From Armatimonadota bacterium (lineage in GTDB: Bacteria > Armatimonadota > UBA5829 > DSUL01), in the NCBI GenBank assembly GCA_025998755.1, contig AP024674.1:248001-312000 (forward strand): 64,000 bases of DNA, read 5' to 3'. Below are positions 22,238-45,796 of this stretch, piece after piece (positions within the stretch are counted from its first letter, which is position 1; every line of letters starts with the position of its first letter). The notes beneath the pieces were generated by a model. It saw only the letters and a list, made by a program, of their open reading frames with translations. It was not told the DNA's origin and searched no databases. The position numbers and the translations under genes were made by a program.

Positions 22238-23605
22238 TCATTCGTCTTCGGCGGGGGTGGCCGGCTCTTCGGGGGCCTCCGCGATATCCACCTCCGGCAG
22301 TGTGCCGGCCTCCGGTGGGAGGGGGATGCGCGTCTGCAGATCTATGGGGGCCGGCTCGGCAAGCGCATCGGCGGAGACGCCAAGCTCCCCCAGCTTCCGC
22401 GCCGATGGAATCAGCCGGCTCTCAAGCGACCCGACCGTCCGATTGTAGCTCTCGACGGAGCGCGTGAGGTTCTTGCCCAGATCCGAAAGATGGGTGTTGA
22501 ACGTCCCGATCCGTTCGTAGATCTCCCGTCCCAACTGGGCGATGCGCCGGGCGTTTTCGGACACCTGTTGCTGCTGCCAGCCGTATGCAACAGCCTTGAG
22601 GAGCGCCAGCAGCGTCACGGGTGTGGTGGGCAGAACGCGCTGCTGCAGGGCGTATTCCAGAAGGGTGGGGTCTTGCTCGTAAGCCACGCTCAGACAGGAG
22701 TCGTTGGGGACGAACATCACCACGAAGTCCGGCGTCTTCTCGAACTGGCTCCAGTACTGCTTTTTGCCCAGATCCGTGATGCGCGAGCGGACGGCGTTGG
22801 CGTGCTCAATCAGCTTTCCTGCCCGTTCACCCTCCGGGCACTCGATGGAAGCCAGGAAGGACTCCATCGGTGTTTTGGCGTCAACCGGGAGCACGCCGCC
22901 GTTCGGCAGCCTGACCACCATATCTGGCCGCCCGGCGTCGGTGGACTGTTGTTCGTCGAAGTCCACGTGGCGGGTCAGGCCCGCCATCTCCACAACGCGC
23001 CGGAGCTGCACCTCTCCCCATCTTCCCCGTACCGTGGGGGATTTCAGTGCCTGTGCAAGCGTGGCGGCAGTGTGCTGCAGATCCCGGTTGCTCTGAAAGA
23101 GTTGCTCGATCTGCTTTGTCAACCCTTCGTATGCGCCTTCCCGACGGCGCTCCAGAGTCTGCACCTGCTGATCCAGCTCCGCGAGCGACTTTTGCAGGGG
23201 TTCTACCAGATTCTTGATCTCCAGCTTCTGCGCGCCCCAGTCGCCTTTGAGCTGGTTGGCGAGGGCGTCGAGCTGGTCTCTGGCGCGTTTCAGGAACTCC
23301 TGGGCGTTGGTCTGGAGGGTCTGCGCCGCCAGCGACTGGAAGGCCTCGCGGAGAGATTGTTCGGCAGTCTGTGCCCACGCCAGCTTTTCAGCGTCCGCTT
23401 CGCGCTCCTTCTCCAGCGAGTTCACACGGAGTTTGAGTTGCTCATTCTCTTGACGGAGCGCTGTGGACTCGGCGGCGGCTGACTCGGCTTGGCGCAAGCG
23501 TTCCTGAAGAGTCGCCATGGCGGCGCTCTGGCGGAACATCGAGGCCAACCATCCCAGGAGCGCTCCTGCCGCCAGTCCCACGATAAACAGTAAAATCTGC
23601 TCCAT
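22238..23605 (-). CDS. rmuC: DNA recombination protein RmuC homologue
   Basis: The product has 455 residues. It has a single N-terminal membrane segment (ILLFIVGLAAGALLGWLA), then a long coiled coil (residues 30-185), then the RmuC nuclease-like domain (about 190-390) with GRWGEVQLRRVVEMAGL, GRPDMVVRLPNGGVLPVDAKTP and FVPNDSCLSVAYEQDP. The D...DAK pattern resembles a PD-(D/E)XK nuclease core. RmuC limits inversions at short inverted repeats in E. coli. The C-terminal 60 residues are acidic and low complexity. It is divergent from the macroglobulin gene. Confidence 0.95.
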   Translation of the reverse strand: MEQILLFIVGLAAGALLGWLASMFRQSAAMATLQERLRQAESAAAESTALRQENEQLKLRVNSLEKEREADAEKLAWAQTAEQSLREAFQSLAAQTLQTNAQEFLKRARDQLDALANQLKGDWGAQKLEIKNLVEPLQKSLAELDQQVQTLERRREGAYEGLTKQIEQLFQSNRDLQHTAATLAQALKSPTVRGRWGEVQLRRVVEMAGLTRHVDFDEQQSTDAGRPDMVVRLPNGGVLPVDAKTPMESFLASIECPEGERAGKLIEHANAVRSRITDLGKKQYWSQFEKTPDFVVMFVPNDSCLSVAYEQDPTLLEYALQQRVLPTTPVTLLALLKAVAYGWQQQQVSENARRIAQLGREIYERIGTFNTHLSDLGKNLTRSVESYNRTVGSLESRLIPSARKLGELGVSADALAEPAPIDLQTRIPLPPEAGTLPEVDIAEAPEEPATPAEDE

Positions 23606-23816
23606 CGCCCTTTCCTCCCTTCGGATGACAGCTCAGGCTTCGGGACGATGGCCGTTGATTCCTCCCCGTCGTTTGCCCGGTGGTGGCGGTGGTGGTATCA
23701 TCTATTCGTCCGGACCAGGCAACTACCGTCCCGCGCGTCTCGCTCCAATCTGTGCGGGCATCCCCTGCAGGCGGGGAAGCTGCCGCGCCCGGAAAGCACA
23801 GGAGGGTTGTCCCCTG
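23606..23816. promoter_or_regulatory. Divergent intergenic region, rmuC / alpha-2-macroglobulin
   Basis: These 211 bases must contain promoters for both divergent genes. No consensus elements could be assigned with confidence. GGAGGG at 23801-23806 is the ribosome site for the macroglobulin gene. Confidence 0.4.
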
Positions 23817-26800
23817 ATGGCGGACGGTCGGTCTTCTACTCTTGCCAGCATCATCGCTGTGGTCCTCGCGCTGGCTTTTGCCGGCGGTCTGGTCTCCCTC
23901 ACTGTCGCCGGCGAGCCCCGTTGCGGCATCCTGACGGGCAGGGTGGTGAATACCAAAGGGCAGCCTATTCCCGGCGCCTTTGTCAGTGTTCCCACCGTGG
24001 ACGGAGAGGACATTCGGCGAGTGCTTACGGACTCGGGCGGCTATTTCCGGGCTGCCCGTGTGCCGGTAGGCTACCACGTCATCGCTGCCCAGCGCAGAGG
24101 CTATGAGTATCAGGAGGCCGGGACGGGCTCCGTGCAGGAAGGCCGGGGGCTCCGGATGCAGCCCATCGTCCTGCGTCCCGCGCCGGATTCGCTGGAGATG
24201 AGCGTCGCGTATCCGCTTTCGGTCGCCACAGGGGGGCGCAAGCGTTTGTACGTCAGCGGAGTCTGCTCGGCGGAGCGTGCGCGTGTGCGCTTCAGCATCC
24301 ATCCCTACGATCTGGTGGGAGAGCGTGAGCGGGATCTGCGCCGCTCCGGGGGCGAGGAATTCGACCGGAGACAGCGGCTCATCAAGGAGATCAACAGGCT
24401 GGAGCCCGCCGTCTGGAGCTGGGAACGCAGCTATTCCACATCCGAGCTGAACGGCCACTTCGACGGCTATCCGGCCACCCCGAAACTGGACCGGCCGGGC
24501 ACCTATCTCGTGGTGGCCACCCTCGGCAAGGCATCTGCGGGAGACACACTGAACGTCACCTCGCTTGCGCTGGTGGCCAAGCGCGATGCGGACGGTGTGT
24601 TGGCCTGGACCACGGACATCAGAACCGGCAAGCCCGTGGCCGGAGCGTCAGTGGAAGTGCATGGCCGTAATACGGGTGGGGCCACAGCGGCGACGGACGA
24701 TCAGGGCCTGGCGCGGTTGAACACCTCCGGCGAAGACTCCCTGGTGGTCGCCCGTCATCAGGGCAGTGTCGCATTCACCAGCTCTTACTACTACAGCGAC
24801 GAATATAATCAGGGCTGCCTCATCTACACGGACCGGCCTCTCTACCGCCCCGGTCATACGGTGCACTTCAAGGGCATTTTCCGCAGGAGCCTGCCCGGCT
24901 CATACCAGGTTCTGGCCGATCGTGAAGTGGAGTTCGTGGTGGAGGATCCGGAAGGGCGCGCGGTGGGCTCGGTGATCGCACGCACCAACGGGTTGGGCAC
25001 CGCGACGGCCGACTGGCAGATTCCGGAGGATGCTCCGCTCGGCAGCTACCGGGTGCGGGTGAAGCTGGACGGCCGGACGGCCGACGCGCGCTTCTCTGTG
25101 GACGAATATCGCAAGCCGGAATACGCGGTGGAGGTCAGCCTGCCGCAGCCGTTCTGCGTGCGCGGCACGGCGGTCAATGCCACCGTCCGGGCCAACTACT
25201 ACTTCGGGGCGCCGGTGGCGGATGCGGAGGTCACTTACACCGTCTACCGCTCGCGCTGGTGGTTCCATCACTATGACAGCGAGTTCGAGTCGTGGTTCGA
25301 CACGATGTTCGGGGGCTACGGTTACGACTACGGCGGGTACGGCGAAGTCGTTATGGAAGGGACCGGCCGCACCGACGAGGCCGGGCAGCTGAAGATCCGT
25401 CTGGATACGGGTAAGGAAGAAGAACTTGCTCGCTGGGTGGTTGAGGCGCGGGTGGTGGATATCAGCATGCGCGAAGTCACGGCTTCGGCGGGCATTACTG
25501 TGACTCCCGCGGACTTCAGTGTCCAGGCCTCCCTCCGGCGTTATGTGACAAGTCCCGGTGAGGCGGTCGTCGTAGATATCCAGACCGTGGACTGGACCGG
25601 AAAGCCAGTGCCGGACCGCAGTCTGGAGGCCATCGTCGAACGGGTCCGGTGGTCCCGGGGCTCCCAGCGCACTGAAGAGGTCGCACGCCTGAAGGCCTCC
25701 ACGGACGGGAAGGGGCGCGGAACCTTTCAGTGGACCCCGGAGTCACGTGGTGACTACCGTATCACCCTTGAGTGCCGGGATGACAGGGGGCGCATCGCCA
25801 GGGATCAAGCCGATGTCTGGGTGGTGAGCGCCGGGCAAAGCGAGTTCTACGGACAGGGTCCTCCGGAGGAAGCTCTGACCATCGTGCGGGACCGCAAAAT
25901 GTACCGGCCGGGCGATACGGCAAAGCTGCTGGTGCGCACAGCCATTCCGGGCCTGAATGTCCTGCTGACCATCGAAGGCCAGAAGCTGTATGAGGCGCGT
26001 GTCCTGCATCTGCAGGGAAGCACGCTCACGGTGGATGTCCCCCTCAACGATTCTCAGCGGCCGGGGGTAACCGTCTCCTGCCTGTACATAAAGGATGGTC
26101 AGATGCGTGTGGCTACGGAAGAGCTGGGCGTAAGCCCTGAGGATGCCTTCCTGACCGTGGAACTGGCCTCCTCCCGGGAGCGTTACCGGCCGGGCGACGA
26201 GGCGCGGTACACCATCCGCACGCTGGATGCGAAAGGGCGAGGCGTCCAGGCTGAGGTGTCGCTCGGTGTGGTGGACGAGGCCATCTACGCTTTGCGCGCC
26301 GACAACACCCCTGACCTGCGGCGCCACTTCTGGGGCCCGAGATACAACCGGGTCAACACCTCTTCCAGTGTCGAGGACTACTATCTGGGCGGCGTGGACA
26401 AGTTCGAGGATAGTGTCCGCAGGGACTTCCGCGACACCGCGTTCTGGGCCCCGCAGATCCTCACGGATTCGGAGGGCCGGGCGACGGTGCGGTTCAGGAT
26501 GCCGGACAACCTGACCACTTGGAGGGCCACCGCCCGTGCCGTCACGGAGGATACGGCTGTCGGGTGGGCTGTGCACAAGTGCCTTGTCACAAAAGATGTT
26601 GTGGTGCGTCTACAGGCTCCGCGCTTCTTCCGGGAGCGCGACCGCCAGACGCTGGGGGTCATCGTCCATAACTACACGTCCGAGCGGCGCAGGATTCGCG
26701 TCAGCCTGAGCGCTACCGGCCTTGAGATCCGGGGGGCTTCCGCGCGGACGGTCACAGTGGACGCGGACGGGGCTGCCAGAATTCCTGTGGAGGTGGATGT

Positions 26801-28514
26801 GCGCAGGCCGGGCGAGGCCGTCCTGACCGCTCGCGCTGACGGAGGCAACCGCGAGGCATCCGACGCGATGGAGTTGCGGTTCCCGGTGCATCCGCACGGC
26901 GTAGTGGCCACCGTGGCCAAGGCGGGGGCGGCTCCGGTGCGGGAGGCGGTGTTCAACCTTCCGGCGAATGCGCATCTGGATTCGGCCCGCCTCCACCTTG
27001 AGATAACCCCGTCCGCCGCTGGAGCCATCTTCGCCGGGCTCCGGTATCTGGTTAACTATCCCTGGGGATGTGTGGAGCAGGTGACCTCCAGCTTTGTTCC
27101 GGACGTGGTTGTGAAGCGCGCGATGGACCGGCTGGGGCTTCCGGCGCCGGATGAGGCGCGCGAGCTCCCGCAGATGCTGCGGCGAGGTATCCGCCTTCTG
27201 CGCGACGCCCAGAACGGTGACGGTAGCTGGGGGTGGCACGGTGAGGGTGTCGCCGACATCGGGATGACCGGCTATGTGCTGTTTGCCCTCGCGGAGGCGC
27301 GCGCCGCAGGAGCTGATGTTCCGGCGGATATGGTCGCGCGCGGGACCGCCTGGCTGGCCGAAGCTGTCGGCAGGGGGGTGCCGCCGAAACCCGCGGCTCG
27401 CGACTGGCTGAAGATGGGCAACTGGTATCGAAACCAGCTGGAAGGTTTTGCCTTTGGGCTTGCGGCGCTTTCCGCCAACGGCGCCGGAGACCGGACACTG
27501 TTCCGGGATCTCTGGGAGCGCCAGGCGGATCTGACCGATTTTGCCCTTGCCTGTCTTGGAATGGCGGCCGCGCAATCAGGGTGGTCTCAGGAGCTCACTG
27601 ATGTGGCCACGGCGCTTCAGGGCAGGAAGAAGACAGAGGCCGGGTTCATGTTCTGGAGCGGGTCTCCGGATCCCTTCGGATGGAGGGCGCCTGCGGCCAC
27701 GGCGATGGCCATGCGCGTCCTGCACCGGGCCGGCCGGACGAGCAACCAACTGGAGCCGGTGGCGGCCTGGCTTGCCCGGCAGAGGGCGGGAGACAACTGG
27801 AGCAACACCCGAGAGACCTCGCTGGTCATCCTGGCGCTGGTGGAGCATATGGAATCCTTGCCCACCGCCACAGGGTCCGTGGAAGTTCTGGTGAACGGGC
27901 GCACAGCGGCGGCGTTCGAGCTGCGGCGGCAGGATGCGTTCCTCCCGCCGCGGTCTCTCGATGTGCCTGGCAAGTCACTGCGGGCGGGCCGGAATACGGT
28001 CACAATCCGGGTGAACGGAACCGGGACGGCCTTCTGGTCCGGAGTGCTCACTTTCGTGGATCCCTCAGAAGACCTGCCGGCAGCGCCCGGCTATTTCCGC
28101 GTCACGCGCGCCTTCCAGCGCGTGAGACTGGAAAAGCAGCCGGACGGCTCTTTTAAGGAAAACGTGGAGCCGCTCAGGGGCGGCGTCCGTGTGGGCGAGA
28201 CTCTGCGGATGCGCATCCAGGTCCGGCCGCGCTCTTCCGGGCAGTATGTGCTGGTGGAGTGCCCCCTGCCATCCGGATTTGAAGTGGTGGAGCGTCCGAA
28301 TCCTTCCTGGGATCTGTCTTTCTCGGGCATCGAGGTGCGGGATGACAGGGTGGGCATCTTCAGCCGGACGCTGGACGGGGATGTCAACACGTTCGACTTC
28401 CAGGTGCGCGCTGAAGTTCCGGGCGAGCTTCATGTAATGCCCGTCAGGGCCTATGCGATGTACGCTCCGCAGCTTGCCGGGACTTCGCCGGAGGCTCGCC
28501 TGACGGTGCGATGA
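23817..28514 (+). CDS. Bacterial alpha-2-macroglobulin with intact thioester
   Basis: The product is 1565 residues from the ATG at 23817, which has GGAGGG 10 bases upstream. The frame is open further upstream but that part is not credible protein. Domains in order: a signal or anchor segment (residues 10-32), a carboxypeptidase-regulatory-like beta domain (about 38-100, GRVVNTKGQPIPGA), MG-type beta domains (TDRPLYRPGHTVHFKG near 340), the A2M domain (VVDEAIYAL near 820, then FRMPDNLTTWRATARAV), the thioester domain with GC1085VEQ, and a C-terminal receptor-binding-like beta domain. The Cys-Gln thioester covalently traps attacking proteases in the periplasm. No lipobox is seen. The stop overlaps the vanW start. 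Confidence 0.93.
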   Translation: MADGRSSTLASIIAVVLALAFAGGLVSLTVAGEPRCGILTGRVVNTKGQPIPGAFVSVPTVDGEDIRRVLTDSGGYFRAARVPVGYHVIAAQRRGYEYQEAGTGSVQEGRGLRMQPIVLRPAPDSLEMSVAYPLSVATGGRKRLYVSGVCSAERARVRFSIHPYDLVGERERDLRRSGGEEFDRRQRLIKEINRLEPAVWSWERSYSTSELNGHFDGYPATPKLDRPGTYLVVATLGKASAGDTLNVTSLALVAKRDADGVLAWTTDIRTGKPVAGASVEVHGRNTGGATAATDDQGLARLNTSGEDSLVVARHQGSVAFTSSYYYSDEYNQGCLIYTDRPLYRPGHTVHFKGIFRRSLPGSYQVLADREVEFVVEDPEGRAVGSVIARTNGLGTATADWQIPEDAPLGSYRVRVKLDGRTADARFSVDEYRKPEYAVEVSLPQPFCVRGTAVNATVRANYYFGAPVADAEVTYTVYRSRWWFHHYDSEFESWFDTMFGGYGYDYGGYGEVVMEGTGRTDEAGQLKIRLDTGKEEELARWVVEARVVDISMREVTASAGITVTPADFSVQASLRRYVTSPGEAVVVDIQTVDWTGKPVPDRSLEAIVERVRWSRGSQRTEEVARLKASTDGKGRGTFQWTPESRGDYRITLECRDDRGRIARDQADVWVVSAGQSEFYGQGPPEEALTIVRDRKMYRPGDTAKLLVRTAIPGLNVLLTIEGQKLYEARVLHLQGSTLTVDVPLNDSQRPGVTVSCLYIKDGQMRVATEELGVSPEDAFLTVELASSRERYRPGDEARYTIRTLDAKGRGVQAEVSLGVVDEAIYALRADNTPDLRRHFWGPRYNRVNTSSSVEDYYLGGVDKFEDSVRRDFRDTAFWAPQILTDSEGRATVRFRMPDNLTTWRATARAVTEDTAVGWAVHKCLVTKDVVVRLQAPRFFRERDRQTLGVIVHNYTSERRRIRVSLSATGLEIRGASARTVTVDADGAARIPVEVDVRRPGEAVLTARADGGNREASDAMELRFPVHPHGVVATVAKAGAAPVREAVFNLPANAHLDSARLHLEITPSAAGAIFAGLRYLVNYPWGCVEQVTSSFVPDVVVKRAMDRLGLPAPDEARELPQMLRRGIRLLRDAQNGDGSWGWHGEGVADIGMTGYVLFALAEARAAGADVPADMVARGTAWLAEAVGRGVPPKPAARDWLKMGNWYRNQLEGFAFGLAALSANGAGDRTLFRDLWERQADLTDFALACLGMAAAQSGWSQELTDVATALQGRKKTEAGFMFWSGSPDPFGWRAPAATAMAMRVLHRAGRTSNQLEPVAAWLARQRAGDNWSNTRETSLVILALVEHMESLPTATGSVEVLVNGRTAAAFELRRQDAFLPPRSLDVPGKSLRAGRNTVTIRVNGTGTAFWSGVLTFVDPSEDLPAAPGYFRVTRAFQRVRLEKQPDGSFKENVEPLRGGVRVGETLRMRIQVRPRSSGQYVLVECPLPSGFEVVERPNPSWDLSFSGIEVRDDRVGIFSRTLDGDVNTFDFQVRAEVPGELHVMPVRAYAMYAPQLAGTSPEARLTVR

Positions 28515-33932: not shown

Positions 33933-35966
33933 TCAGTCCAGCCGCAAGATGTCGCTCCAGTCGCGCATCCGGACCAGCCGGCGGATATCCGTCCAGCCGG
34001 AGGGCACACTGCCTTCCACAATGCCGGTCACTGCGCACAGATCCCCCTGCGCCACCGGCAGGGAGGAACCGGGGCAGCGGACCATCACGCCGCGCCGCCC
34101 GGCCAGGTCTACCACGCCGGATCCATCGTCCACAAAGATCACGGTTCCCAGCACGGCGGTCACACGACCCACGACAGTTACCAGTTGTCCCACGTTGTTG
34201 ATACCGAAGCCGCCCCGCGCTCCGGCCAGATAGGGGATCACCGGTCCACCGCCCACCTGAATACCCCGCATTCTGAGAGCGGGAAGCATTACGGGCGGGG
34301 CAGCCAACCGTGTGATGGATGCCTCTGCCACCGTGCGTTCAGCGTTCACGCCGCCGAGCACGCGCGTGCGGGCTTTGCCGGTCACATTGACCGTGTCACC
34401 CACCGAGACTCCAGTCGCCACGGCCTCCACCCGGACCGCCGCGGATCGGTCCGGCTCCGAGACATAGGTCGCTCCGTCCGCTGGGAACACAGCGGTGACG
34501 ATCTTACGAAGCAGCAGCACAGGGGCATTTTCTGGCAGCAGCTTCACCGTCCCGCAGCGGTCGCCACCCTGAGGTTGGGTCGGGCGCCCCAGTGCGTTCA
34601 CGGGCGCCGATGGCTGGCCGCCGGAGTCCAGCGCGAATGCCGTGTAATAGTAGACCGCGCCGTTCATCAGTCCCGTGTGCGCAAAGGTGTCCCAGGATCC
34701 GGGCGGTCCGGGACGCTCACAGACCAGGACCCCGTCGGTCAGGCTCTGCGGATAGCCGTCGGTTCGCATCCGTATCACCGTTCGGTCGAAGCTTCCTGAG
34801 GGGTTCTGCCAGGTCAGGCGGACGGCGGCGTCCATCGCCTGCGCCGTGAAGTTCTGAACCGGGGGCGGCGGAGCGCCCGGGAAGGAGCGGGTCAGGAAGT
34901 TGTCGCGGTAGTAGGCGCCCGCCGGCTTCAGACTGTAGTCATATCGCCAAAGGCCGAAATAGTTCTCGAAGCTTTCATACTGGTTGATTGTGTAAGTCTT
35001 GGCATCATAGGTCATCCACTGCAGGCAGCCCGCGATGTCGTGGTTTTCGAAAGCCTCCAGCCACTGCTGGTACATTGCCAGCTGCTGCGTCTCGTTATAG
35101 TCCCAGATGAGCACTCCGTCCCGGTTGCACGGGGTGGGGTTGGTTGGCCAGCCGAACTCCTGCGCCAGGATGGGTTTCTGGTTCACCCCCATGAACGACT
35201 TGATGACCGGGATCTCCGTGTTGTTCGTGATGTGGGACCAGTAAGAGTGGAAGCAGACGATGTCCACAAATCCTATGACATCTTTGTTATTGTTATACCA
35301 GCGCATCCCCACCGAGACAGGGTGATGGGGGTCAATCGTGCGGATGTGTGCCGCCATGCGGCTCAGCCAGCTGACGATCCTGTCCCGCTGTGTGGGAGCC
35401 ATATCCCAGTCATCGAAGCCGTTGATGGAGCTGGGGTGGTCCGGCTCATTCTTCACGTCCCACATGAAGACGTAGGGGTTGTTCTTCAAACGGCCGACAA
35501 TGGCGTTGATGTAGCTCTTGTGCTCGGTCTCGCGCTGTGTCCCGGCCGCCGGGTAGCTGGTCTCCCAGTCGAACAGCGTCACGCAGCTACGGATGCCGTT
35601 CGCGCCCAGATGGTTCACCAGGGATTCCAGCTGTTGCAGACGAGTTTCCGGCGGACTGGGGCCGTTCCATCCTCCGTGCGTGTAAGGCACCAGGATCCGA
35701 ACCGCATTCATCCCGAGGGACCGCATCCGGTCTGTGTCGGCCAGAATGGCGTTCCAGTTCCAGTTGGTCCACATGCTGGCCCACATTCCGTCCCGGGGAT
35801 AATAGTTGGTCCCCTTGATGCGGATGGGCTGGCCGTAGATGGTCAGCTTGCTACCTTGCACGGCCACGAAGCCGTAAGGGGGATTCTGGGGGGATGCCAT
35901 CACGGGCACCCCCCAGGGGACCGAAGCCAGCACTGCTCCGGCCAGGATGACGGCAACCAGTCTCAA
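33933..35966 (-). CDS. Secreted GH5-like glycoside hydrolase with Fn3 and OB-like tandem
   Basis: The product has 677 residues; the only plausible start is a TTG at 35966 with AGGAGA upstream. A signal peptide (residues 1-24) precedes a TIM-barrel clan GH-A catalytic domain (about 35-365). The predicted acid/base is Glu174 in WDVKNEPD and the nucleophile is Glu270 in ILAQEFGWP, with a preceding CFHSYW strand. An Fn3-like domain (about 367-460) and a 210-residue OB-like tandem (bases about 33936-34560; KIVTAVFPADGATYV, VVGRVTAVLGTVIFVDDGSG) follow. It is probably an extracellular beta-mannanase or glucanase-type enzyme. It is the last of three consecutive minus-strand genes sharing the C-terminal module. 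Confidence 0.88.
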   Translation of the reverse strand: MRLVAVILAGAVLASVPWGVPVMASPQNPPYGFVAVQGSKLTIYGQPIRIKGTNYYPRDGMWASMWTNWNWNAILADTDRMRSLGMNAVRILVPYTHGGWNGPSPPETRLQQLESLVNHLGANGIRSCVTLFDWETSYPAAGTQRETEHKSYINAIVGRLKNNPYVFMWDVKNEPDHPSSINGFDDWDMAPTQRDRIVSWLSRMAAHIRTIDPHHPVSVGMRWYNNNKDVIGFVDIVCFHSYWSHITNNTEIPVIKSFMGVNQKPILAQEFGWPTNPTPCNRDGVLIWDYNETQQLAMYQQWLEAFENHDIAGCLQWMTYDAKTYTINQYESFENYFGLWRYDYSLKPAGAYYRDNFLTRSFPGAPPPPVQNFTAQAMDAAVRLTWQNPSGSFDRTVIRMRTDGYPQSLTDGVLVCERPGPPGSWDTFAHTGLMNGAVYYYTAFALDSGGQPSAPVNALGRPTQPQGGDRCGTVKLLPENAPVLLLRKIVTAVFPADGATYVSEPDRSAAVRVEAVATGVSVGDTVNVTGKARTRVLGGVNAERTVAEASITRLAAPPVMLPALRMRGIQVGGGPVIPYLAGARGGFGINNVGQLVTVVGRVTAVLGTVIFVDDGSGVVDLAGRRGVMVRCPGSSLPVAQGDLCAVTGIVEGSVPSGWTDIRRLVRMRDWSDILRLD

Positions 35967-36084
35967 GATATCGCGTGTCTCCTGTTCTGTTCTGCCCGCC
36001 TTACGCGCTCGCGGGTTTCTGCTTCCGTCGGCCTCCCTTGACTATAGTCCATATTTGTTGAGGATTAGTTCCGCAGATAGTGCG

Positions 36085-38127
36085 TCAGTGGATAATCAGA
36101 TCCTGTGCTGAACGCATGAAGAGCAGGCGTCGATTCGTGCTCCACCCGGTGGGGATGCTTCCGGTGACGACGCCGCTCACCGTGACCATCTGTCCTGCGC
36201 TCACGGTGGGAGTCCCGAATGGCCAGCGCACCATCACCCCGACGCGGCCCGAGATATCCGGGACCGCCTCCCCGTCGTCCACGTAGAAATACTGGCCAAC
36301 CACGGCCGTCACGCGGCCGCTTACCCGAACGAGGAGGCCCATCGAGTTCACGCCTTTGCCGTCACGGACTCCCGGGATGTAGGGCGGAACGGCTGCCCCT
36401 CCCACGGTGGATGTCCGCATATGCAGCGGTACGGGCGATGGTCCACTGCCTGTCAGGGTGATCGTGTCAAGGCGCAGCTGTCGCTCCGACGGGATCCCGC
36501 CGACCAAAACAGTCTCCATCGTCCCCGAGATGTCCACCCTGCTTCCCACACTCAGAGGCGGGAAAGTTCCAGCCACTCGCAACCCGCCGGCTCGGTCTTC
36601 TTCCTGCACATAAATACAGCCGTCCGAAGAGAATATGCCCGAGACGACCTTGCCCCTCAGCATAGTCCAGGTGCCGTTCGGCAGCATCCGTACGTCCGTG
36701 CACCGCTGCGGGCGAGGAGTTGCTTGCACGGAGACGCCTCCCGAGAAGCTGCCGTCCGAAGCCTTGGCAAAGACGGAGTAATACTGCGTGGTGTTGCTTG
36801 CGACGAGGTGGAGATATGAGGACTGCGCACCTGGAGATGCGGCAACCTCGGCTACCCGGGTTCCATCCGTGGGGCTGGTGGGAAAACTTCCGGACTTGAC
36901 ATTCACCACCGCTGCAACCACGCGGCTGTCGGCCGGATTGGTCCAGGTCAGCCGTACGGCCCGATCCCCCACATCGGCTCGAAGATTGGTTACAGGTGGC
37001 AGGGGAGTTACCACCGATGAACCGGACACGTAGGCGATGGTCTCGGCATGATCGTAGACGAGATGGACCGTTGAGTCCGGACCTGCGACGATGCAGGGCC
37101 AGCCTTTCCATACATTGTCCGCCGCGGAGGCTGCCGTTTCGGGAGCCGACCACGTCCCTCCAGACCATCTCCGGTAGAGGATGGCCCGCTGGCTCGGCCT
37201 TTCATGGTAGACCAGGTGCACAACTCCGTCTGCCCCCTGTGCGAGCCAAGGGTAATGCCCGGCCGAGACAAGAGTGGATATTGGGGTCCACGTCTGACCA
37301 CCATCCGAGCTGGAGCAATGCTTGATCTGGTAGGTGCTGTCATTGACCTGGTCGAAGGTCACCACAACTACGCCGTTCGAGCCGGATGTCGCTATCCGCC
37401 CGTAGGCGAAGAACCCCGTGGTGGTTCCGATGACTTGAGTGGACGTCCACGTCGAACCTTCCAGGCGCCGATACAGAATCCTCTTCGATTCCTCCCAGAT
37501 CACGTGGACGCGCCCTGCGGCATCGACGGCGATTCCGGGCCTATGGTAAAATTCGCGCTCGCAGTTGCCCAGCGCCACCGGCGCCGTCCAGCTTGAGCCG
37601 TTCCACATTCGGTACTGGATACTTTTGTCGACGGCATAAACCAGATGGACGCGCCCGTCCCCCATGACCCGCATCATGGCGTAATCCTCATTGACGCCTG
37701 GCGTGTTCGTGAGCTGGACGGTGCTCCAGGTGCCGCTCACCCGTCGCGCGAGAAACAGGTCTGTGGCTCCGCCGGGCGGAGAACCGGCATAAACCACCCA
37801 TATGCTGCCATCCGGGTGATAAGCGATATTGGCTCGCTCCGACCAAGGCACGGAGACGGTCTCCACCGGTCCCCACACTCCGGTTGCCGAGCGCTCGCGA
37901 TAGAGCAGGCGCCAGTCCGGGTTCTTCCTGCGGTAAACCACGAAGATGCGCCCATCCGGGGCTGACGCTATGCTCGGCACCGAGCAGCCTGTGTCCGATG
38001 CCGGGGAGATGATGAGTGGCGGAGTCCAGGTCAGAGCTGATGTCGGAGATGTCCCCACCACGCAGGCGGCTATCGCCGCCGCGAAGCTCATTGCAACCTT
38101 TATTACCAAGTGCTTTCTTTCCAACAC
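36085..38127 (-). CDS. Secreted sialidase-like beta-propeller with Fn3 and OB-like tandem
   Basis: The product has 680 residues from a GTG at 38127 with AGGAGGG 5 bases upstream. A signal peptide (about 1-31, ending TSALT) is followed by repeated blades of the BNR/sialidase-like type (about 35-385), for example SSSDGGQTWTPIS, IAVDAAGRVHVIWEES and IAYHPDGSIWVVYAG. The arginine triad of true sialidases was not identifiable, so sugar binding is as likely as catalysis. An Fn3-like domain (about 388-475) and the OB-like tandem (about 480-680; VVSGIFSSDGCIYVQEEDR, VSGRVTAVVGQYFYVDDGE) complete it. It lies 118 bases upstream of the GH5-like gene. Confidence 0.85.
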   Translation of the reverse strand: MLERKHLVIKVAMSFAAAIAACVVGTSPTSALTWTPPLIISPASDTGCSVPSIASAPDGRIFVVYRRKNPDWRLLYRERSATGVWGPVETVSVPWSERANIAYHPDGSIWVVYAGSPPGGATDLFLARRVSGTWSTVQLTNTPGVNEDYAMMRVMGDGRVHLVYAVDKSIQYRMWNGSSWTAPVALGNCEREFYHRPGIAVDAAGRVHVIWEESKRILYRRLEGSTWTSTQVIGTTTGFFAYGRIATSGSNGVVVVTFDQVNDSTYQIKHCSSSDGGQTWTPISTLVSAGHYPWLAQGADGVVHLVYHERPSQRAILYRRWSGGTWSAPETAASAADNVWKGWPCIVAGPDSTVHLVYDHAETIAYVSGSSVVTPLPPVTNLRADVGDRAVRLTWTNPADSRVVAAVVNVKSGSFPTSPTDGTRVAEVAASPGAQSSYLHLVASNTTQYYSVFAKASDGSFSGGVSVQATPRPQRCTDVRMLPNGTWTMLRGKVVSGIFSSDGCIYVQEEDRAGGLRVAGTFPPLSVGSRVDISGTMETVLVGGIPSERQLRLDTITLTGSGPSPVPLHMRTSTVGGAAVPPYIPGVRDGKGVNSMGLLVRVSGRVTAVVGQYFYVDDGEAVPDISGRVGVMVRWPFGTPTVSAGQMVTVSGVVTGSIPTGWSTNRRLLFMRSAQDLIIH

Positions 38128-38163
38128 GCTATCCCTCCTAGCTTTCCTCTATGTGGTCCAGAC

Positions 38164-40260
38164 TTATGGACCGACAAGTATCTGGAGATCGGCATAGGTG
38201 CGGAGCCGGACCAGCCGCCGGTTCGTCGTCCAGCCTGTGGGCACACTGCCCTCCATCACCCCCACCGCGCGCACCAGATCCCCCACGTTTGCCGGTATGG
38301 AGGAATCCGGGCAGCGAACCATTACTCCGGTGCGGCCTGATGTGTCCAAAACCCCGCTGCCGTCGTCAACGAACAGATAGCTGCCCACTTTCGCCGTCAC
38401 CCGGCCGGCCACGGCAACCAGCAGCCCGATGGTGTTTACACCGTATCCGTCGTTCACCCCCAAAATCAAGGGCGGTGCACTCCCTCCCCCCGCCGCAATT
38501 CCTTTCATCATCACGGGCCTGACACCGCTGCCCCTCGCCGTCACTGTCACCGTCGCCTGCACGATTTGCCGTTCGCTTCGCAGGCCGGTGACAATGCGGG
38601 AGTCCATCACTCCAGAGACGTTCACAACATCGCCGACAGCCATCCCCGCTGTCGGCGTGACCACCCGAATGCCCGAGGATCGCTCCGGGTCCTGGATATA
38701 GATGACGCCGTCTGAAGGGAATACAGCCGTTATCACCCGTCCTGTCAGGTCCACCCGCGTGCCATCTGCCAGCAGACGCACACTCCCACAGGTTTGAGAG
38801 AATGGTGTCGCGGAGGCCTTCGCGGGCTGCTGGCTCTGGCCGAAAACGTCCAGGCAGAAAACGGAATAGTAATAGGTCGTTCCGTTGGTCAGACCCGTGT
38901 GGTCCACGGACCCGGCAGTGCCGGGATGCACCAGCGCGTCATAGAGCGGAAGGCCGTCGGACGGGCTTGCCGGGAAGGTCGAAGTGCTGTACCGGATGAC
39001 CACCCGGTGCAGGTTGATTGATGATGGGTTGGTCCACCGGATACGCGTCAGCCTGTCGGATGCCGTGGCGCTGAGGCCCTCTGCAGGAGCAGGTGGCCCG
39101 GACGGATAGGGCAGGGTGGAATAGTAGGCGTTCGGCGCGTCCTCGCCCCCCCAGTATTCCCACACAGCATATAGGGTATTCTGCGAGTCCGTGCAGAGAT
39201 CGGGATCCACAGTGTAAGCGAGGGGCAGACCCACCGAGACCACCGACGGAGTGGGCTGCCACTGCCCGTGCGCGAAGCGCTTGCCCAAAAGACGGTCTCT
39301 GGAGGCCCCCAGTTCGGAGTAGACGATGTAGAAATACGTATGCTGCACGGCGGCCACAGCAGGGGCGAACCCCTGTGCCACCAGCAGCTGCGGTCCCCAG
39401 CCGGTAACAGGACTGTAGTGGCGGGCATAGATCTTCTCATCCTGGTCCCAGGCCACCATAATCTCCCCCTGCTTGTTGATGGCGATGGAAGGACGCGCCA
39501 CGAACTCCGTGCCCGTGTTGGTGGAGACCACGATCTCCGGACCCCAGCTGGAACCGTCGAAGCGCCGCATGCAGAGCTGCCAAGATCCCCCGATCTTCCT
39601 CCCGTAGGTGCGGTAAACGCTGCCGTCCACAGGGTTACGGCAGGCCCCGGTCACCGCATAGGAGTTATCCGTCCACGTGCCCATCGAGGCATGGGGCGAC
39701 CATGAGGATCCGTTCCAGGTTCCGGAATACAGGACGTTCTCTTTGGCCCTCCACGAGGCGCATAGCATGTTCGGACCATATTGCGGCCCAAACGGAGCAA
39801 GCTGTGGGGTCTTGGCCTGTCCACCGTCTCCGGGCGGGTAAGCGTAGGCTGTCACCGGGAAGGTTGTCCAACTGGCCCCTCCGTTCGATGAACGGGCCGC
39901 CCAGATCTGTTCCCCTCCCTGGGCGTCGTCCACCCAGTTCTCCCAGGCAATCCAGATGTCCCCATTTCCCGCCAGTGCGATGTCGGAACGTCCGCCGGGC
40001 CAACCGGTGACCGGAACTATGCTGGGAGGTGAAAGGACGCCTGCGTGCAACCGCCGATAGCGCACGGACCAGGATGGCTTGGTGGGCTTGTAGTGTATAT
40101 GCACGCCGCCCGCCGGGTCGGGATACAGCACCGGATTCTTGACCGCCTTTTCAGTGGCCGGCGAGTTGATCAGCGCCGCTGGCGCCCACTGTTGAGCGCA
40201 GGCGGATCCGGTCAGACAACCCAGCAGAGCAAGCGGAGCGGCGATAAGCAGGCAGCGCAT
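38164..40260 (-). CDS. Secreted sialidase-like beta-propeller with Fn3 and OB-like tandem (paralogue)
   Basis: The product is about 698 residues from the ATG at 40260, which has AAAGGA 9 bases upstream; the longer frame to 40377 lacks support. The signal peptide is CLLIAAPLALLGCLTGSACA. The propeller (about 25-390) has a BNR-type box SSNGGASWTTFP and blades such as IALAGNGDIWIAWENW and IAINKQGEIMVAWDQD. Fn3 (about 393-485) and the OB-like tandem (about 490-698; VITAVFPSDGVIYIQDPERSSG, VAGRVTAKVGSYLFVDDGSG) follow. It is 36 bases upstream of the next propeller gene, so the three genes probably form an operon. Substrate unknown. Confidence 0.85.
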   Translation of the reverse strand: MRCLLIAAPLALLGCLTGSACAQQWAPAALINSPATEKAVKNPVLYPDPAGGVHIHYKPTKPSWSVRYRRLHAGVLSPPSIVPVTGWPGGRSDIALAGNGDIWIAWENWVDDAQGGEQIWAARSSNGGASWTTFPVTAYAYPPGDGGQAKTPQLAPFGPQYGPNMLCASWRAKENVLYSGTWNGSSWSPHASMGTWTDNSYAVTGACRNPVDGSVYRTYGRKIGGSWQLCMRRFDGSSWGPEIVVSTNTGTEFVARPSIAINKQGEIMVAWDQDEKIYARHYSPVTGWGPQLLVAQGFAPAVAAVQHTYFYIVYSELGASRDRLLGKRFAHGQWQPTPSVVSVGLPLAYTVDPDLCTDSQNTLYAVWEYWGGEDAPNAYYSTLPYPSGPPAPAEGLSATASDRLTRIRWTNPSSINLHRVVIRYSTSTFPASPSDGLPLYDALVHPGTAGSVDHTGLTNGTTYYYSVFCLDVFGQSQQPAKASATPFSQTCGSVRLLADGTRVDLTGRVITAVFPSDGVIYIQDPERSSGIRVVTPTAGMAVGDVVNVSGVMDSRIVTGLRSERQIVQATVTVTARGSGVRPVMMKGIAAGGGSAPPLILGVNDGYGVNTIGLLVAVAGRVTAKVGSYLFVDDGSGVLDTSGRTGVMVRCPDSSIPANVGDLVRAVGVMEGSVPTGWTTNRRLVRLRTYADLQILVGP

Positions 40261-40527
40261 GGTTGAACATCCTTTTGGCGCGGGTGGCCTAAGTCGCAAA
40301 CACCAGGCCGTGCCTGCCCTCCCCGGACCAGGGCAACCGGAGAGCAAGCAACGGCCGGGCAGAACTGGCACTCTCAATTAGAGGTTACCATACGGGGTGC
40401 CCCGGGTCAACGGGATTATTCCCTGCTTCCGACGCCTCCAGTGGGCCTGTGGTAGAATACGTGCCGGACTGAGCTTGCGTGTGCCGGTTGTCCGTCCATT
40501 CGCTCTGGAAAGGTTGCCACTCGCTTG

Positions 40528-43314
40528 ATGAATCTCTTGCGCTTTGCTGTTCTGCTCGGGTTGCTTGTTTGCCTTGCGGCCACGCCGTCTCTCGGGGCCG
40601 CTCCCGGCCCGGTTTTCGACGATGCGCTGAACTACGCCGTTGTGGACCAGACCTGCCCGCCTCTTGATCCGGCGCAGGAAGGGTTGGTGCTGGTGGCTCA
40701 GGGCAAGGCTCAGTGGGTGCAGCTCTCCAGCAAGAGTCCCGTCGGCCAGACGTTTACGCTTAGCGATCGCGCCCGGAGACTATGGCGCATCTTCGTGGGC
40801 ATCAGCCACTGGCCGGATAGCTGGCAGGAGGGAGAAGCGGTCACCTTCACCCTCTACGACTCCCCCGAGAAGCGTACAAAACTCTACTCCCGGACGCTCG
40901 ATTTCGACCACAAATGGAGCAAGTGGGACACCGCTTTTGATGTGGACATTGAGGCCGCTCCCGGCCAGAGCTTCTATTTCGAACTCACCCACAACGGGGG
41001 TGGGGATGACCGCGTCAATGTGACGGCTGTCTCCGGAAACGTTTACCCGCGCGGGAGTGCCCGCATCGGTGGGGTGGAGCAGCCGGACCTGGATCTCACA
41101 TTCACCGTCACCGCCAAGCCCCAGCCGGACCGCGAGGCGAATCTGCGGAGATTCATCGGCCGGTTCGACCTTCAGCATCCCTTGCTGGAAAAGGCCCGGC
41201 AGGCCTACGACGCGGGCGACCTGGACCGCACGTGCATCGAGATCTTGCGAGCCGTGGAGGCGCATCTGCGGAAAGCCGACTGGATCCCCTGGCTGAAGCC
41301 CGGGGAGAAGCCGGACGTGTCGCGGATGGAAAAGGTGGTCTCCGAAGGGCGCCTGTATTCCACCAGAGAAGACGGAGAGGGGTCTTGGATCGAGATGTCC
41401 CGCCAGACCACCTGGCGCGAAGTGTGGCCGGGATCCGCCAGCTACGTCCGCCACAACGACCTGTTCGCCGACCTGGGGCGGGCCTACGCCGCCACGAAAG
41501 ATGAGCGTTACGCCAGAAAACTGAACGAACTTATGCTGGATTTCGTTCAGGACCACGCCTCTCCCTTCGAGGGGGGAATGCGCGGCGGGCGATGGGTAGC
41601 CATGTTCCAGGCGTGGAGACTGGGTGACGCCTGGGACGGCTTTGCCCTGGCGATGGGCTCAACCGGACTGACCGACGACGTGAAGCTCGCATGGCTGGAC
41701 TACAACGCGCGGATGGCGCACTTCGCCCTGACCGAGCCCTCCGGCGGCAACCACGCCAACGCCGTCGCGGAAGCGTTGATGAAGTTCGCGGAGCGCTTCC
41801 CTATGTACGCGGAGTCCAAGGTCTGGTTCTCCCGCGGGTTCGAGCTTCTGGTCAACAACTCGCTGAAGCTGTTCTGGCCGGACGGCGGATGCGTTGAACC
41901 CGCCATGAACTATCACGGGTTTTCGCTGGCCAACCTGATGGCCGGTCTGGAGACCGCCGGGAGGTTCGGACTGGATGCGCCACCGGACCTGATGCGGGTG
42001 GTCGAAGCGGCCCACGCTTACACCGCCTATATGCTCAAGCCGGACGGGCAGATCCCGACATACGGCGACACGGATTGCGAGGATTTCCGTCCGGGGATAC
42101 AGAAATGGCAGGGCTGGCGCAATGGGGAGGCTATGACCGGCGCGAAGCTATTCAACCGGAAGGATCTCCTCTTCATCGCCACGGCGGGCCGTGAGGGCGA
42201 GCGCCCGGCCGAGGATTCCTACTGCTTCCCGGACACGGGGCATTACATCCTGCGAAGTGGCTGGGGTGGTCCTGGCGGAACCGGATTCGAAGATGACCGG
42301 TGGCTCTTCCTGCGGGCGGGGCGCTTCGGCAGCCACGGGCACGACGACCTCAACATGGTCACGCTTTACGCGTATGGCCGTCCTCTGCTCATTGACCCCG
42401 GCCGGACCGAGTATGGCACGGAGCTTATGTTCGAGCTCACCCGCAACCGGTCCCACAATGTGCTGTTGGTGGACGACTTGATGATGCAGCACCCGGCCCC
42501 GCGGCTCAATGCGTGGTCCACGTCTCCGGTGTTAGACCTTGTGGATAATTCTTATGCAGAGTTGTATCCGGGCGTGGAGCATCGCCGGGCTGTGGTGTTT
42601 GTAAGGCCGGACTATTACGTGCTTTTCGACTCAGCTTCGGCCGACAGAGAGCACAACTATGGAGTCAACTTCTGGCTGACCCCGCCCGACGCTGCGCTGG
42701 ACCCCGCCCGCGGTACGGCGCGTTCCACAACGCCCGATGCGGCCAATGTTCTCCTGCAGTCTGCGGATGCAGGAAAGATCCGCCTGGCTGGCCGGAAAGG
42801 CACGCTGGACCTGCGCGGCATCCGCGACGATATCCCGGTGGTGACGTTCTGGCGGGACGGGGTGAAGGCGGCCCGCTTCGCAACCATCCTGTATCCCTTT
42901 CCGGCCGGAAAGACTGTGGAGTCCCTGGATGTCCGGGATCTTACTGCTTCGGGCGAAGAGCGGGTGCTGCGTATAGGGACGCCTTCGGGCGTGGATTATG
43001 TGGGCTACAATCCGTCCGGCGGAGAAGCCGGCCCCTCCGCCTGGGTGATACGCTGTGTTCGTGATGGCCGGACAGTCCGTGCGTTCGGTGTGGCCGGCGC
43101 CCGTCGGGTGGAGCTGAAGGGGCGCGTGCTGGCGTCTGCGGACAAGACGCTGACGGGCCTCTCGGTGGAGTATGGCCGGGACACTGTGACGGTATCCCTT
43201 CGTCAGCCGGAGCCCTCCCTGCGTGTGGCGACGCTCGGGCGCAGGAAAGCCTTGGTCAACGGCCGGGAGATGGCCGTGTCAGGCGCGACGTTCGCTCCGT
43301 TTCCCCCAGAGTAG
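40528..43314 (+). CDS. Secreted heparinase II/III-type polysaccharide lyase
   Basis: The product is about 928 residues; a TTG at 40525 directly precedes the chosen ATG. It has a signal peptide (about 1-23). Residues about 30-190 form a beta-rich accessory region (IFVGISHWPDSWQ, FYFELTHNGGGDDRVNV). The alpha/alpha-toroid spans about 200-560 (LTEPSGGNHANAVAEALM, CVEPAMNYHGFSLANLMAGL). The heparinase II/III beta-sandwich starts with GRFGSHGHDDLNMVTLY (about 598-614), whose His/Asp are typical metal or catalytic residues, then GRPLLIDPGRTEYG. Such enzymes cleave uronic-acid-containing glycans such as alginate, heparin-like polymers or ulvan by beta-elimination; specificity cannot be read. It is divergent from the propeller/GH5 operon. 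Confidence 0.88.
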   Translation: MNLLRFAVLLGLLVCLAATPSLGAAPGPVFDDALNYAVVDQTCPPLDPAQEGLVLVAQGKAQWVQLSSKSPVGQTFTLSDRARRLWRIFVGISHWPDSWQEGEAVTFTLYDSPEKRTKLYSRTLDFDHKWSKWDTAFDVDIEAAPGQSFYFELTHNGGGDDRVNVTAVSGNVYPRGSARIGGVEQPDLDLTFTVTAKPQPDREANLRRFIGRFDLQHPLLEKARQAYDAGDLDRTCIEILRAVEAHLRKADWIPWLKPGEKPDVSRMEKVVSEGRLYSTREDGEGSWIEMSRQTTWREVWPGSASYVRHNDLFADLGRAYAATKDERYARKLNELMLDFVQDHASPFEGGMRGGRWVAMFQAWRLGDAWDGFALAMGSTGLTDDVKLAWLDYNARMAHFALTEPSGGNHANAVAEALMKFAERFPMYAESKVWFSRGFELLVNNSLKLFWPDGGCVEPAMNYHGFSLANLMAGLETAGRFGLDAPPDLMRVVEAAHAYTAYMLKPDGQIPTYGDTDCEDFRPGIQKWQGWRNGEAMTGAKLFNRKDLLFIATAGREGERPAEDSYCFPDTGHYILRSGWGGPGGTGFEDDRWLFLRAGRFGSHGHDDLNMVTLYAYGRPLLIDPGRTEYGTELMFELTRNRSHNVLLVDDLMMQHPAPRLNAWSTSPVLDLVDNSYAELYPGVEHRRAVVFVRPDYYVLFDSASADREHNYGVNFWLTPPDAALDPARGTARSTTPDAANVLLQSADAGKIRLAGRKGTLDLRGIRDDIPVVTFWRDGVKAARFATILYPFPAGKTVESLDVRDLTASGEERVLRIGTPSGVDYVGYNPSGGEAGPSAWVIRCVRDGRTVRAFGVAGARRVELKGRVLASADKTLTGLSVEYGRDTVTVSLRQPEPSLRVATLGRRKALVNGREMAVSGATFAPFPPE

Positions 43315-43326
43315 CCCTGACGGGGT

Positions 43327-45591
43327 TTACCAGCTTCGCGAGAAGCTGACCGTGATCGCTCGCGGGAGCACCTGGGTGGAGACAGATCCGTCCGCAGCCA
43401 GAGTGGTGGGCGTCCGGGAATCGAAGATGTTGTAAACGTGGATGCCCACCCGTCCGGATGACGGATCGGATGTGACCGGCCGGCTGAGTCCCAGCGTCAC
43501 CACAAAGTTGTCCTTCACGCGCCGGGTGTTCTCCACGGTGTCTGTAATTGAGGTCCAGGGCAAACCGCTTCCCCACTGGATACGTGCAGATGCCTCTGTC
43601 AGGCCGAAGTCGCGGACCAAGGTGGCATCCAGAGTGTGACGCTGGTCCCAGTCAGGGTAGGTCCAGGCCGTAGGATCGAATGCGCTCGGCACGCGCACCT
43701 TCGACCAGGTGTAGCTTATCCATCCCCGTAGTCTCTCAGCCATCCGCCGAGCGATGGAAAACTCGACACCTCTGGCGGTGGCCTTCGCGCGGCTGACGAA
43801 GGTCAGCGGCGAGTCCGGATCCAGCGGATCCATAGGCACCCGGTCCAACAGGTCGGTGTATTCCCGGTAGAACGGCGTCACTCGAAACACGGAGTCCGGG
43901 CGGAACTGGCGCTCCAGGCTCACTTCGTATGATGTCGCGCGTTCCGGGTCCAGGATGGCGTCGGATGCGTAGATCATCTCCCAGGCGGGATTCGTATACA
44001 CTCTGTCAAGTACGGATGTGGGTGTGAACTGGATAAAGCGTCCCCAGCTCGCCCGTACCACAGTCCGGGGATCGCGCGACCATGCCACGCCCAGGCGGGG
44101 CGAGATCTGCGAATCCGAGAAGTCCGGCCCCACAGCCTTGTCGTAGCGCATCCGGTCGTAGCGCAGGCCTGCATCAACCACCCACTCGTCCGACAGGCGG
44201 ATCTTGTCCTGGACGAACAGGGCGAGCTGCCGCGTTCCCACTCGGGAGGTGTAGTCGAAAGGATCGAACATCTCCGCAATGTCCGGATCACCGGTCATCC
44301 TGAGCGCCAGGTCCGGGATGTAGCGACGGAAAGAGTTCGAGCCGCTGATATACCACACGCCCGCCGTCACGCCGTGGCGGGATCCGAACGCTTTCCTGAA
44401 TTCCACCTGGACGCCGCGCTGGAGCGACCGGCTGTCGGCGGAGTCCCCCAGGTCGGTGGAGAGCGCGTTGATGCGGTTCTTGCTCATGAAATAGTAGGGG
44501 CGCACCAGGATGTTCGCGTCGCCGCTCAGATCCCGGCTCCACGTCAGACCGGCCAGACCGTAGCCCTGTGTGGTGTGGTCCTGCCCGTCCGGCACAGCTC
44601 CCTCCGCCAGCGGAAGCAGGTACCTGGCGAAACCTGTGGCCCAGAGGAATGTAAGCCGGTCCGACGGCCCCGCAGGATACACCAGCTTGATGGTGGTGTC
44701 CTCGGAGTTTGCTGCGCGCGCCACGTAGCCGCTGAAGTCCGACCTCCACGTGTAGTTCCCGATATACCAGTCCAGCCCGGATGGCAGCACTCCGCCCGCT
44801 TCCCCCAGTCCTCCCAGGTACTGGCGGGAACCTGCTGTCACATCCAGGGTGGCGCCCATCAGCTCGCTTCCGGTTTTCTTGATCTCGTTGAGGACTCCGG
44901 AGATGGCGTTTCCGTACTCCGCCTGATATCCGCCTGTGTAGACCTGCAGACGGGACATCCCCACATTCACCAGATTCGTCCCAAAGGTATTGTCCACCGG
45001 GTTCGTTACCGGGATTCCTTCGATCATCCAGCCGATCTCGTCGTCCCGGCCGCCTCGGATGTGCAGGTTGCCCAGTCCGTCCCGCACTACACCGGGCACT
45101 GTGCTGACGATGTCCGGCACCTGGTTGAATGCGTGAGGGGAGGTTCTGGCAAGCTGCTGGTCCCGTGAGGAGCGGGTGTATAGCGTCTGGGTGGCGTCGG
45201 GGTTGGTCAGAGTGCGGTTCTGCACCACCACGATTTCGGGCTCCTCCTCCACGGTCCGCTGCATCCGGATGGTCACTCGGGAGATCAGATCCATCTGGAC
45301 ATCCACACCGGTGACTTCCGCCGGCGCGTAGCCGACCAGCACTGCGGAGACCGTGTAGTCCCCAGGGGGAACATTTAGGAACGAGAAAGCGCCCGAAGCA
45401 CCGGAGACGGTGGTCAACGAGGTGCCGCCGAGACTCAGGTTGACACCGGCCAGAGCTTCTCCCGTCTCATCATCCACCACTACTCCCGACAGGGTGCCGG
45501 TGGTCGCTGCCCGAGCGGCAGACGAAAATGCGAGCACGCTCAAGACCGTGATCGCCAGACGGACCGCTAGCGTCTTCTGCCAGTTCGCCAT
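43327..45591 (-). CDS. TonB-dependent outer-membrane receptor with carboxypeptidase-regulatory-like domain
   Basis: The product is about 754 residues from the ATG at 45591 with GGAGG 10 bases upstream. A signal peptide (ends SSAARA) is followed by a carboxypeptidase-regulatory-like domain (TLSGVVVDDETGEALAGVNL, about 30-115) as in SusC-type and OmpA-like transporters. The plug domain follows (about 150-250; PDIVSTVPGVVRDGLGNLHIRGGR, GNAISGVLNEIKKTG), then a 22-strand-type barrel ending in the outer-membrane signal aromatic residue (SFSRSW). It would import oligosaccharides or siderophores using TonB energy, and its place beside the lyase suggests glycan uptake. Its 3' end nearly touches the convergent lyase gene. 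Confidence 0.88.
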   Translation of the reverse strand: MANWQKTLAVRLAITVLSVLAFSSAARAATTGTLSGVVVDDETGEALAGVNLSLGGTSLTTVSGASGAFSFLNVPPGDYTVSAVLVGYAPAEVTGVDVQMDLISRVTIRMQRTVEEEPEIVVVQNRTLTNPDATQTLYTRSSRDQQLARTSPHAFNQVPDIVSTVPGVVRDGLGNLHIRGGRDDEIGWMIEGIPVTNPVDNTFGTNLVNVGMSRLQVYTGGYQAEYGNAISGVLNEIKKTGSELMGATLDVTAGSRQYLGGLGEAGGVLPSGLDWYIGNYTWRSDFSGYVARAANSEDTTIKLVYPAGPSDRLTFLWATGFARYLLPLAEGAVPDGQDHTTQGYGLAGLTWSRDLSGDANILVRPYYFMSKNRINALSTDLGDSADSRSLQRGVQVEFRKAFGSRHGVTAGVWYISGSNSFRRYIPDLALRMTGDPDIAEMFDPFDYTSRVGTRQLALFVQDKIRLSDEWVVDAGLRYDRMRYDKAVGPDFSDSQISPRLGVAWSRDPRTVVRASWGRFIQFTPTSVLDRVYTNPAWEMIYASDAILDPERATSYEVSLERQFRPDSVFRVTPFYREYTDLLDRVPMDPLDPDSPLTFVSRAKATARGVEFSIARRMAERLRGWISYTWSKVRVPSAFDPTAWTYPDWDQRHTLDATLVRDFGLTEASARIQWGSGLPWTSITDTVENTRRVKDNFVVTLGLSRPVTSDPSSGRVGIHVYNIFDSRTPTTLAADGSVSTQVLPRAITVSFSRSW

Positions 45592-45796
45592 AGAACCTGT
45601 TCCTCCCATCCCTGGATAGCCGGGTTGAGATACGGGCCGGCCCTCCAACCGGCTGCGGTTATCATTATCGGATTAGGATGAAGATTCCTTGAAGGTTCGC
45701 AAGCGCCAACAGAGCCGCTCGTTCGCCGAAAATGAGACGGCAGACAATGTTCGTGGAACAATCCGGATGAGCGGCAAGCAAAGGGGCTCTATTCTG

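Follow-up and report, generated by a model that had tools for sequence, protein, structure and literature searches.

A C-terminal module of about 207 residues was analysed in a 64,000-nucleotide stretch of an Armatimonadota genome (the whole stretch is called the window, and coordinates are window positions unless the own genome, G000, is named). The module closes three consecutive minus-strand genes (33933-40260) and two plus-strand proteins (1-6.4 kb), and it makes up a new family, with a familiar fold in a familiar use, that stands out mainly by its scale and its restriction to one lineage. An earlier note on this DNA had pointed to the shared tail, of roughly 210 residues, in these five proteins; the observation is far larger than its reader saw, being class-wide and taking in dozens of otherwise unrelated secreted proteins per genome. 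The family is absent from Pfam and NCBIfam, yet it is present on about 65 proteins of a 3.3-Mb genome, and naming it would annotate more than 1000 matches in 24 genomes alone. The module would also give a marker for the proteins exported by a scarcely studied lineage, in which the OB fold has been put to use in large numbers as an accessory domain outside the cell.

All five tails are homologous. Translation and alignment gave identities of 27-47% (42-47% within the 33933-40260 group, 27-31% between the groups) and of 89% for the tails of P0004 and P0005, the pair at 1-6 kb; 28 alignment columns are invariant across the five, and the landmark motifs listed in the earlier note were found in every one of them. 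Its proposal that the two halves are two OB-type barrels agrees with two lines of evidence, structure models with their neighbours and sequence matches. AlphaFold2, run on an 11-sequence alignment, modelled the P0003 tail with a mean pLDDT of 88.2 and a pTM of 0.86 and the P0005 tail with values of 78.9 and 0.78; the strand order is the same in both, and these divergent tail types are thus predicted to share one two-barrel fold. Each half forms a five-stranded beta barrel, the mark of an OB fold, in both models; in that of P0003 the strands of barrel 1 span residues 13-25, 30-34, 41-45, 56-68 and 71-86, and those of barrel 2 residues 125-136, 139-143, 157-160, 173-181 and 194-197. The Foldseek neighbours of both models are OB proteins: over the full length, two-barrel HIN domains come first (TM about 0.35-0.44), and over single barrels the neighbours are RPA14, RMI2, anticodon domains of aminoacyl-tRNA synthetases and single-stranded DNA-binding proteins (SSBs). 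By sequence, barrel 2 matches RPA14 (E 2.5e-6), and barrel 1 matches the N-terminal barrel of the solved EEP nuclease 9sf8 (E 3.5e-6; 2e-5 with another profile).

Over 138 modules, the most conserved positions of barrel 1 (tail numbering) are structural glycines, Y32, Q/E34, D37, R38, R/K43 and E74-R75; outside it they are the Gly/Asn linker and the D-D-G-S of barrel 2. The near-invariant tyrosine of barrel 1 is Y in 126 of the 138 and W in 8. Judging from strand alternation rather than coordinates, Y32, Q34 and R43 would point outward from strands 2-3, on the side where OB folds usually bind their ligands. The final R-x3-D-[IVL] is retained in internal copies of the module, so this motif is structural.

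The module is abundant in its own genome (3.29 Mb, Armatimonadota), which encodes about 65 module-bearing proteins when fragments are allowed for. A single-tail search gave 60 matches at E<=1e-3 and a whole-genome profile search gave 70 matching segments, numbers that rule out a chance likeness of the tails; a five-tail profile applied to stretches extracted from this genome found 64 modules in 62 open frames. One copy (G000:C1:2981490-2982071) is spread over more than one frame and is apparently broken, through a frameshift either in the gene or in the assembly. The module is present in 24 of 28 same-class genomes, the own genome included, with 22-102 matches each (a few counts are lower bounds, and many of the relatives are fragmented metagenome-assembled genomes). 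The remaining four, with zero copies, belong to two genera (G221 in g4; G237-G239 in g16), and genomes in the rest of the phylum have 0-2 matches each. The restriction to one phylum that the earlier note expected is supported, as a strong restriction to a single class of it. No relatives were found in a plasmid collection. A three-tail alignment used as a query for related loci returned four, and one homologue of both barrels, in single copy (E 1e-18), was found in a 0.8-Mb genome (L108, JAUVWW010000006.1, 1462-3603). The L108 protein has two lamin tail domains (PF00932), then the two-barrel module, then a C-terminal LAKTG-TM anchor, and is a possible link between the Armatimonadota tails and nuclease-associated OB pairs.

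Unrelated heads carrying a constant tail, in a secreted set, had been described from the five proteins, and the description extends to the genome. An N-terminus like a Sec-type signal sequence was called by a crude rule (n-region, hydrophobic stretch, AxA) in 57 of 60 complete module-bearing frames, with one more Tat-like (RRDFLKG); the rule was passed by 59 of 116 other frames of 350 aa or longer, some of which are spurious. The heads include subtilases (5 of the 6 own-genome S8 peptidases carry the module), GH-A/GH5, GHL10, phosphodiester glycosidase (NAGPA), PLD and Amidase_3 enzymes, Kelch, BNR, WD40, PQQ and Vgb propellers, beta-helices, DUF362 and DUF7901, and a sizeable share have no Pfam match. 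The stop codon follows within 30 residues of the module in 56/62 own-genome proteins and 65/70 sampled class proteins, and within 5 in most. Internal copies were seen in 6/62 and 5/70, respectively; those of the own genome precede Fn3, carboxypeptidase-regulatory, vWA-like, lectin-like or other sequence, and in one class member (L107, genome G292, placed in the class because its match coordinates are identical to those of same-class G226) the module stands between a beta-helix and a GH36-like domain assigned by eye. Some class members have two to three modules end to end, as in the 732-aa protein L137 (G228:C245:31000-34700), in which a short N-terminal domain with a G-S-I-G-Q motif is followed by three consecutive modules. 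A near-solo frame (G000:834125-834976) has little beyond a signal peptide and the module. In own-genome proteins the module is followed by neither a membrane anchor nor an LPXTG-like end, and no peptide is conserved at the terminus.

The tails evolve under constraint. In close orthologue pairs dN/dS is 0.08-0.20 for tails and 0.10 for heads, a purifying selection about as strong on the tails as on the heads, which indicates that the tails are functional. Two adjacent Amidase_3 genes (L033, G000:C1:2678873-2684093) have 59% identical heads and tails that are 97.5% identical at the nucleotide level, with 93% identity over their last 1356 nt, which marks their C-terminal segment as recently copied. 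Likewise, comparison of 3-1385 with 5265-6423 shows that P0004 and P0005 are 91.5% identical over their last 1159 nt while the heads differ. A third homologue of this pair lies at G000:C1:3257243-3262024. In other class members, one and the same genome has this amidase head either with the module or with C-termini that contain no module and look, by eye, Fn3-like or Golvesin-like. Purifying selection, tail exchange and optional occurrence on heads together show the tail to be an accessory domain that is mobile and functional. The idea that all tails are homogenised in concert was rejected, since most paralogous tails are 25-40% identical and orthologous tails keep pace with heads; exchange was seen only in single pairs. 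In the tail-less genera no homologues of the module-bearing amidase head were found, so the set seems to have been lost rather than trimmed (one head was tested), and G221 has a single S8 peptidase, similar to the only S8 of the own genome that is likewise without a tail.

The earlier reader did not recognise a named family, and scans of the five whole proteins and 61 modules against Pfam and NCBIfam returned none that covers the module and no enzyme family. DUF5689, BOF, DUF5818, RMI2 and YgiW were rejected as its identity; their weak matches, in few members, fit a shared OB fold. PF01336 is matched by 22 of the 61 members at E<=1 (best 2.9e-5), and a match above its cut-off was shown only for the outside homologue L108 (31.3 vs 27 bits). 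Barrel 2 has the F-x-h-D-D-G-S/T-G signature in common with the PF01336, RPA14, RMI2 and Stn1 folds; in contrast to these, it is secreted, forms the second half of a fixed two-barrel unit and stands in no setting of replication or recombination. Nearest among known regions is the pair of OB folds in extracellular nucleases of the YhcR/ExeM type (CD04486, NF033681). Like the module, the OB region of YhcR/ExeM/NucH comprises two OB folds in a secreted protein, with a barrel 1 similar in sequence; unlike the module, it is N-terminal to a catalytic domain, whereas here the two barrels are C-terminal, the heads vary and no EEP nuclease domain was found in the scanned heads (one PLD-like domain is present). 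NF033681 (ExeM/NucH) is matched by 4/61 members below its cut-off (best E 0.0014). As tested, the Armatimonadota module is not a member of that family, the fold is shared, and a distant common ancestry is probable. HIN-200 proteins, tandem OB DNA sensors, likewise have two OB barrels in about 200 residues and were the top structural matches of both models, but identity is 8-15%, the module is not basic, and homology beyond the fold has no sequence evidence. The L108 protein shares the homologous module and features of export and anchoring, but it is a single copy with lamin tail domains, and Armatimonadota proteins have no anchor of its kind. A literature search, mostly outside subscription journals, found no description of the module.

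By role, the nearest parallels are carbohydrate-binding modules (CBMs), dockerins and type IX tails, which are also constant accessory or C-terminal modules on varied secreted enzymes; these have folds other than two OB barrels, and the module has no sequence match to them. It behaves as a CBM does, that is, as a non-catalytic exchangeable domain on glycan-active enzymes, its non-catalytic nature being judged from the lack of any enzyme-family match. The obligatory extreme C-terminus of a type IX tail is not seen, given the internal copies. SLH domains do not track the module: they are few and are present in tail-less genomes too.

The reading that we favour, with some hesitation, is that the tail may be a non-catalytic accessory module of two OB barrels by which secreted proteins are retained, much as by a CBM, on a ligand outside the cell; the most likely ligand is a polymer of the producer's own matrix or cell surface. 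An optional, exchangeable, sometimes repeated and mostly terminal unit on hydrolases and propellers, with no enzyme signature, shows the pattern of a binding or retention module, and tandem copies (up to three) and the near-solo signal peptide-module protein are typical of binding modules. Binding would occur through the canonical OB ligand face of barrel 1, where Y, Q/E, D-R and R/K are placed on strands 2-3 and in the loop that belongs to them. Barrel 2, which is RPA14/Stn1/RMI2-like and has the motif F-x-hydrophobic-D-D-G-S, would mainly pack on barrel 1 or on a neighbour through the conserved Gly/Asn-rich linker. A glycan is a first guess at the putative ligand class, since many heads are glycosidases, amidases or propellers and the module is not basic. 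The two naturally tail-less genera offer a ready comparison for finding the binding target. Several points weigh against this reading. The roughly 90% C-terminal placement exceeds that of most binding modules and would also suit a sorting tail; outside the class, the close relatives by sequence are nucleic-acid binders or adjoin nucleases; the aromatic content (6% vs 10% in the heads) is low, unlike that of many CBMs; and residue exposure was taken from strand alternation.

Of the rivals, DNA binding ranks first, a dedicated sorting machine second and protein docking third. It is unlikely, in our view, that the module binds extracellular DNA as a secreted version of the YhcR/ExeM-type tandem OB, tethering enzymes to DNA in biofilms. 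The match of barrel 1 to 9sf8 with two profiles and the weak NF033681 matches are in its favour, as are the best two-barrel structural matches, to HIN domains and SSB, which bind DNA, and the need of ExeM for its two-OB region in nuclease activity (PMC6085458; see also PMC4118848). However, the average module is slightly acidic, with a net charge per 100 residues of -0.5 in the own genome and -1.4 in the class (the heads are more acidic still), and this makes DNA binding less likely; whole-module TM-scores to HIN reach just 0.35-0.44; and none of the EEP nucleases of the class was seen with the module, their matches lying in other open reading frames (ORFs), mostly of 149-400 aa with one of 585, none of which is a module-bearing ORF of the own genome. 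More doubtful is the reading of the tail as a C-terminal signal for sorting, or for secretion across the outer membrane, that a dedicated machine would recognise, with a role comparable to that of a type IX tail. One tail on diverse heads, its position close to the stop codon and the missing amidase heads of the tail-less genera would suit such a signal, but the internal and tandem copies weaken a strict sorting tag, as does the final R-x3-D-[IVL], kept in internal copies and hence structural. The same heads also occur without the tail inside one genome, and the exported window proteins P0006 and P0007 have none. SprA (PF14349) was not found in 31 genomes, in a search in which no control genome gave a match either. 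The earlier note had offered sorting, anchoring or polymer binding; on the sequences, polymer binding would be the most economical of these, and strict sorting or anchoring is less well supported, given the roughly 10% of internal copies, the tandem copies, the tail-less heads and the absence of a terminal peptide or anchor.

Least probable is a docking role, in which the tails would attach, like dockerins to cohesins, to a receptor repeated along a scaffold or surface-layer protein. Many hydrolases that share one constant C-terminal module show the architecture of dockerin systems, and barrel 2 is nearest to OB folds that mainly make protein contacts (RMI2, RPA14, Stn1). Against this, cohesin (PF00963) gave no match in the own genome and 1-2 scattered matches in 9/29 genomes (one positive control matched), no candidate receptor was found, and a dockerin would be less expected to occur in tandem or nearly alone. 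A wider conjecture, also thought unlikely, is that the module could be the recognition tag of an undescribed class-specific system that assembles or retains many hydrolases and propeller proteins outside the cell, comparable to cellulosome or type IX display but independent of cohesins; its receptor would be common to the 24 genomes with the tail and missing from the two genera that have none.

Table 1. Module-bearing genes of the window and their tandem OB modules.
Feature	Position	Strand	Composition	Basis
P0003	38164..40260	-	signal sequence, propeller-like head, Fn3-like linker, module; start set at ATG (MRCLLIAAPLALLG)	
Tandem OB module of P0003	38173..38793	-	barrel 1 about 38500-38793, linker, barrel 2 about 38173-38427	translation, alignment, AlphaFold2
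P0002	36085..38127	-	signal sequence, BNR head, linker, module	
Tandem OB module of P0002	36088..36705	-	on BNR propeller head	translation, alignment, Pfam scan
P0001	33933..35966	-	signal sequence, GH-A head, linker, module	
Tandem OB module of P0001	33936..34559	-	on GH-A/GH5-like head	translation, alignment, Pfam scan
P0005	1522..6426	+	signal sequence, WD40, Ig-like repeats, lectin-like domain, module	
Tandem OB module of P0005	5791..6408	+	on WD40/C-type-lectin-like/Ig-repeat head	translation, alignment, Pfam scan, AlphaFold2
Tandem OB module of P0004	753..1370	+	end of 1715-aa ORF	translation, alignment

The heads in the window (Table 1) were in part as first described. The head of the supposed GH5-like enzyme, P0001, matches a GH-A-type TIM barrel (PF02836, E 3e-9) and not GH5 proper. 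Of the two supposed sialidase-like propellers, P0002 matches a BNR family (PF13088, E 1e-12), whereas P0003 reaches none and is propeller-like by resemblance only. The Fn3-like linker of these three genes stands as a resemblance that falls below the Pfam threshold, and the linker of the pair at 1-6 kb is Big_13/OmpL47-like in the Pfam/NCBIfam scan. P0004 is the 3' end of an ORF whose start lies beyond the window (G000 244241-249385), with a head unrelated to that of P0005. The latter has more than a dozen near-identical WD40 repeats, then repeated Ig-like units and a C-type-lectin-like stretch. A heparinase II/III-like enzyme and a TonB-dependent receptor (40525-45648), both without the tail, adjoin the three tail genes, and an alpha-2-macroglobulin-like protein of 1665 aa was assigned by eye at 23517-28514.

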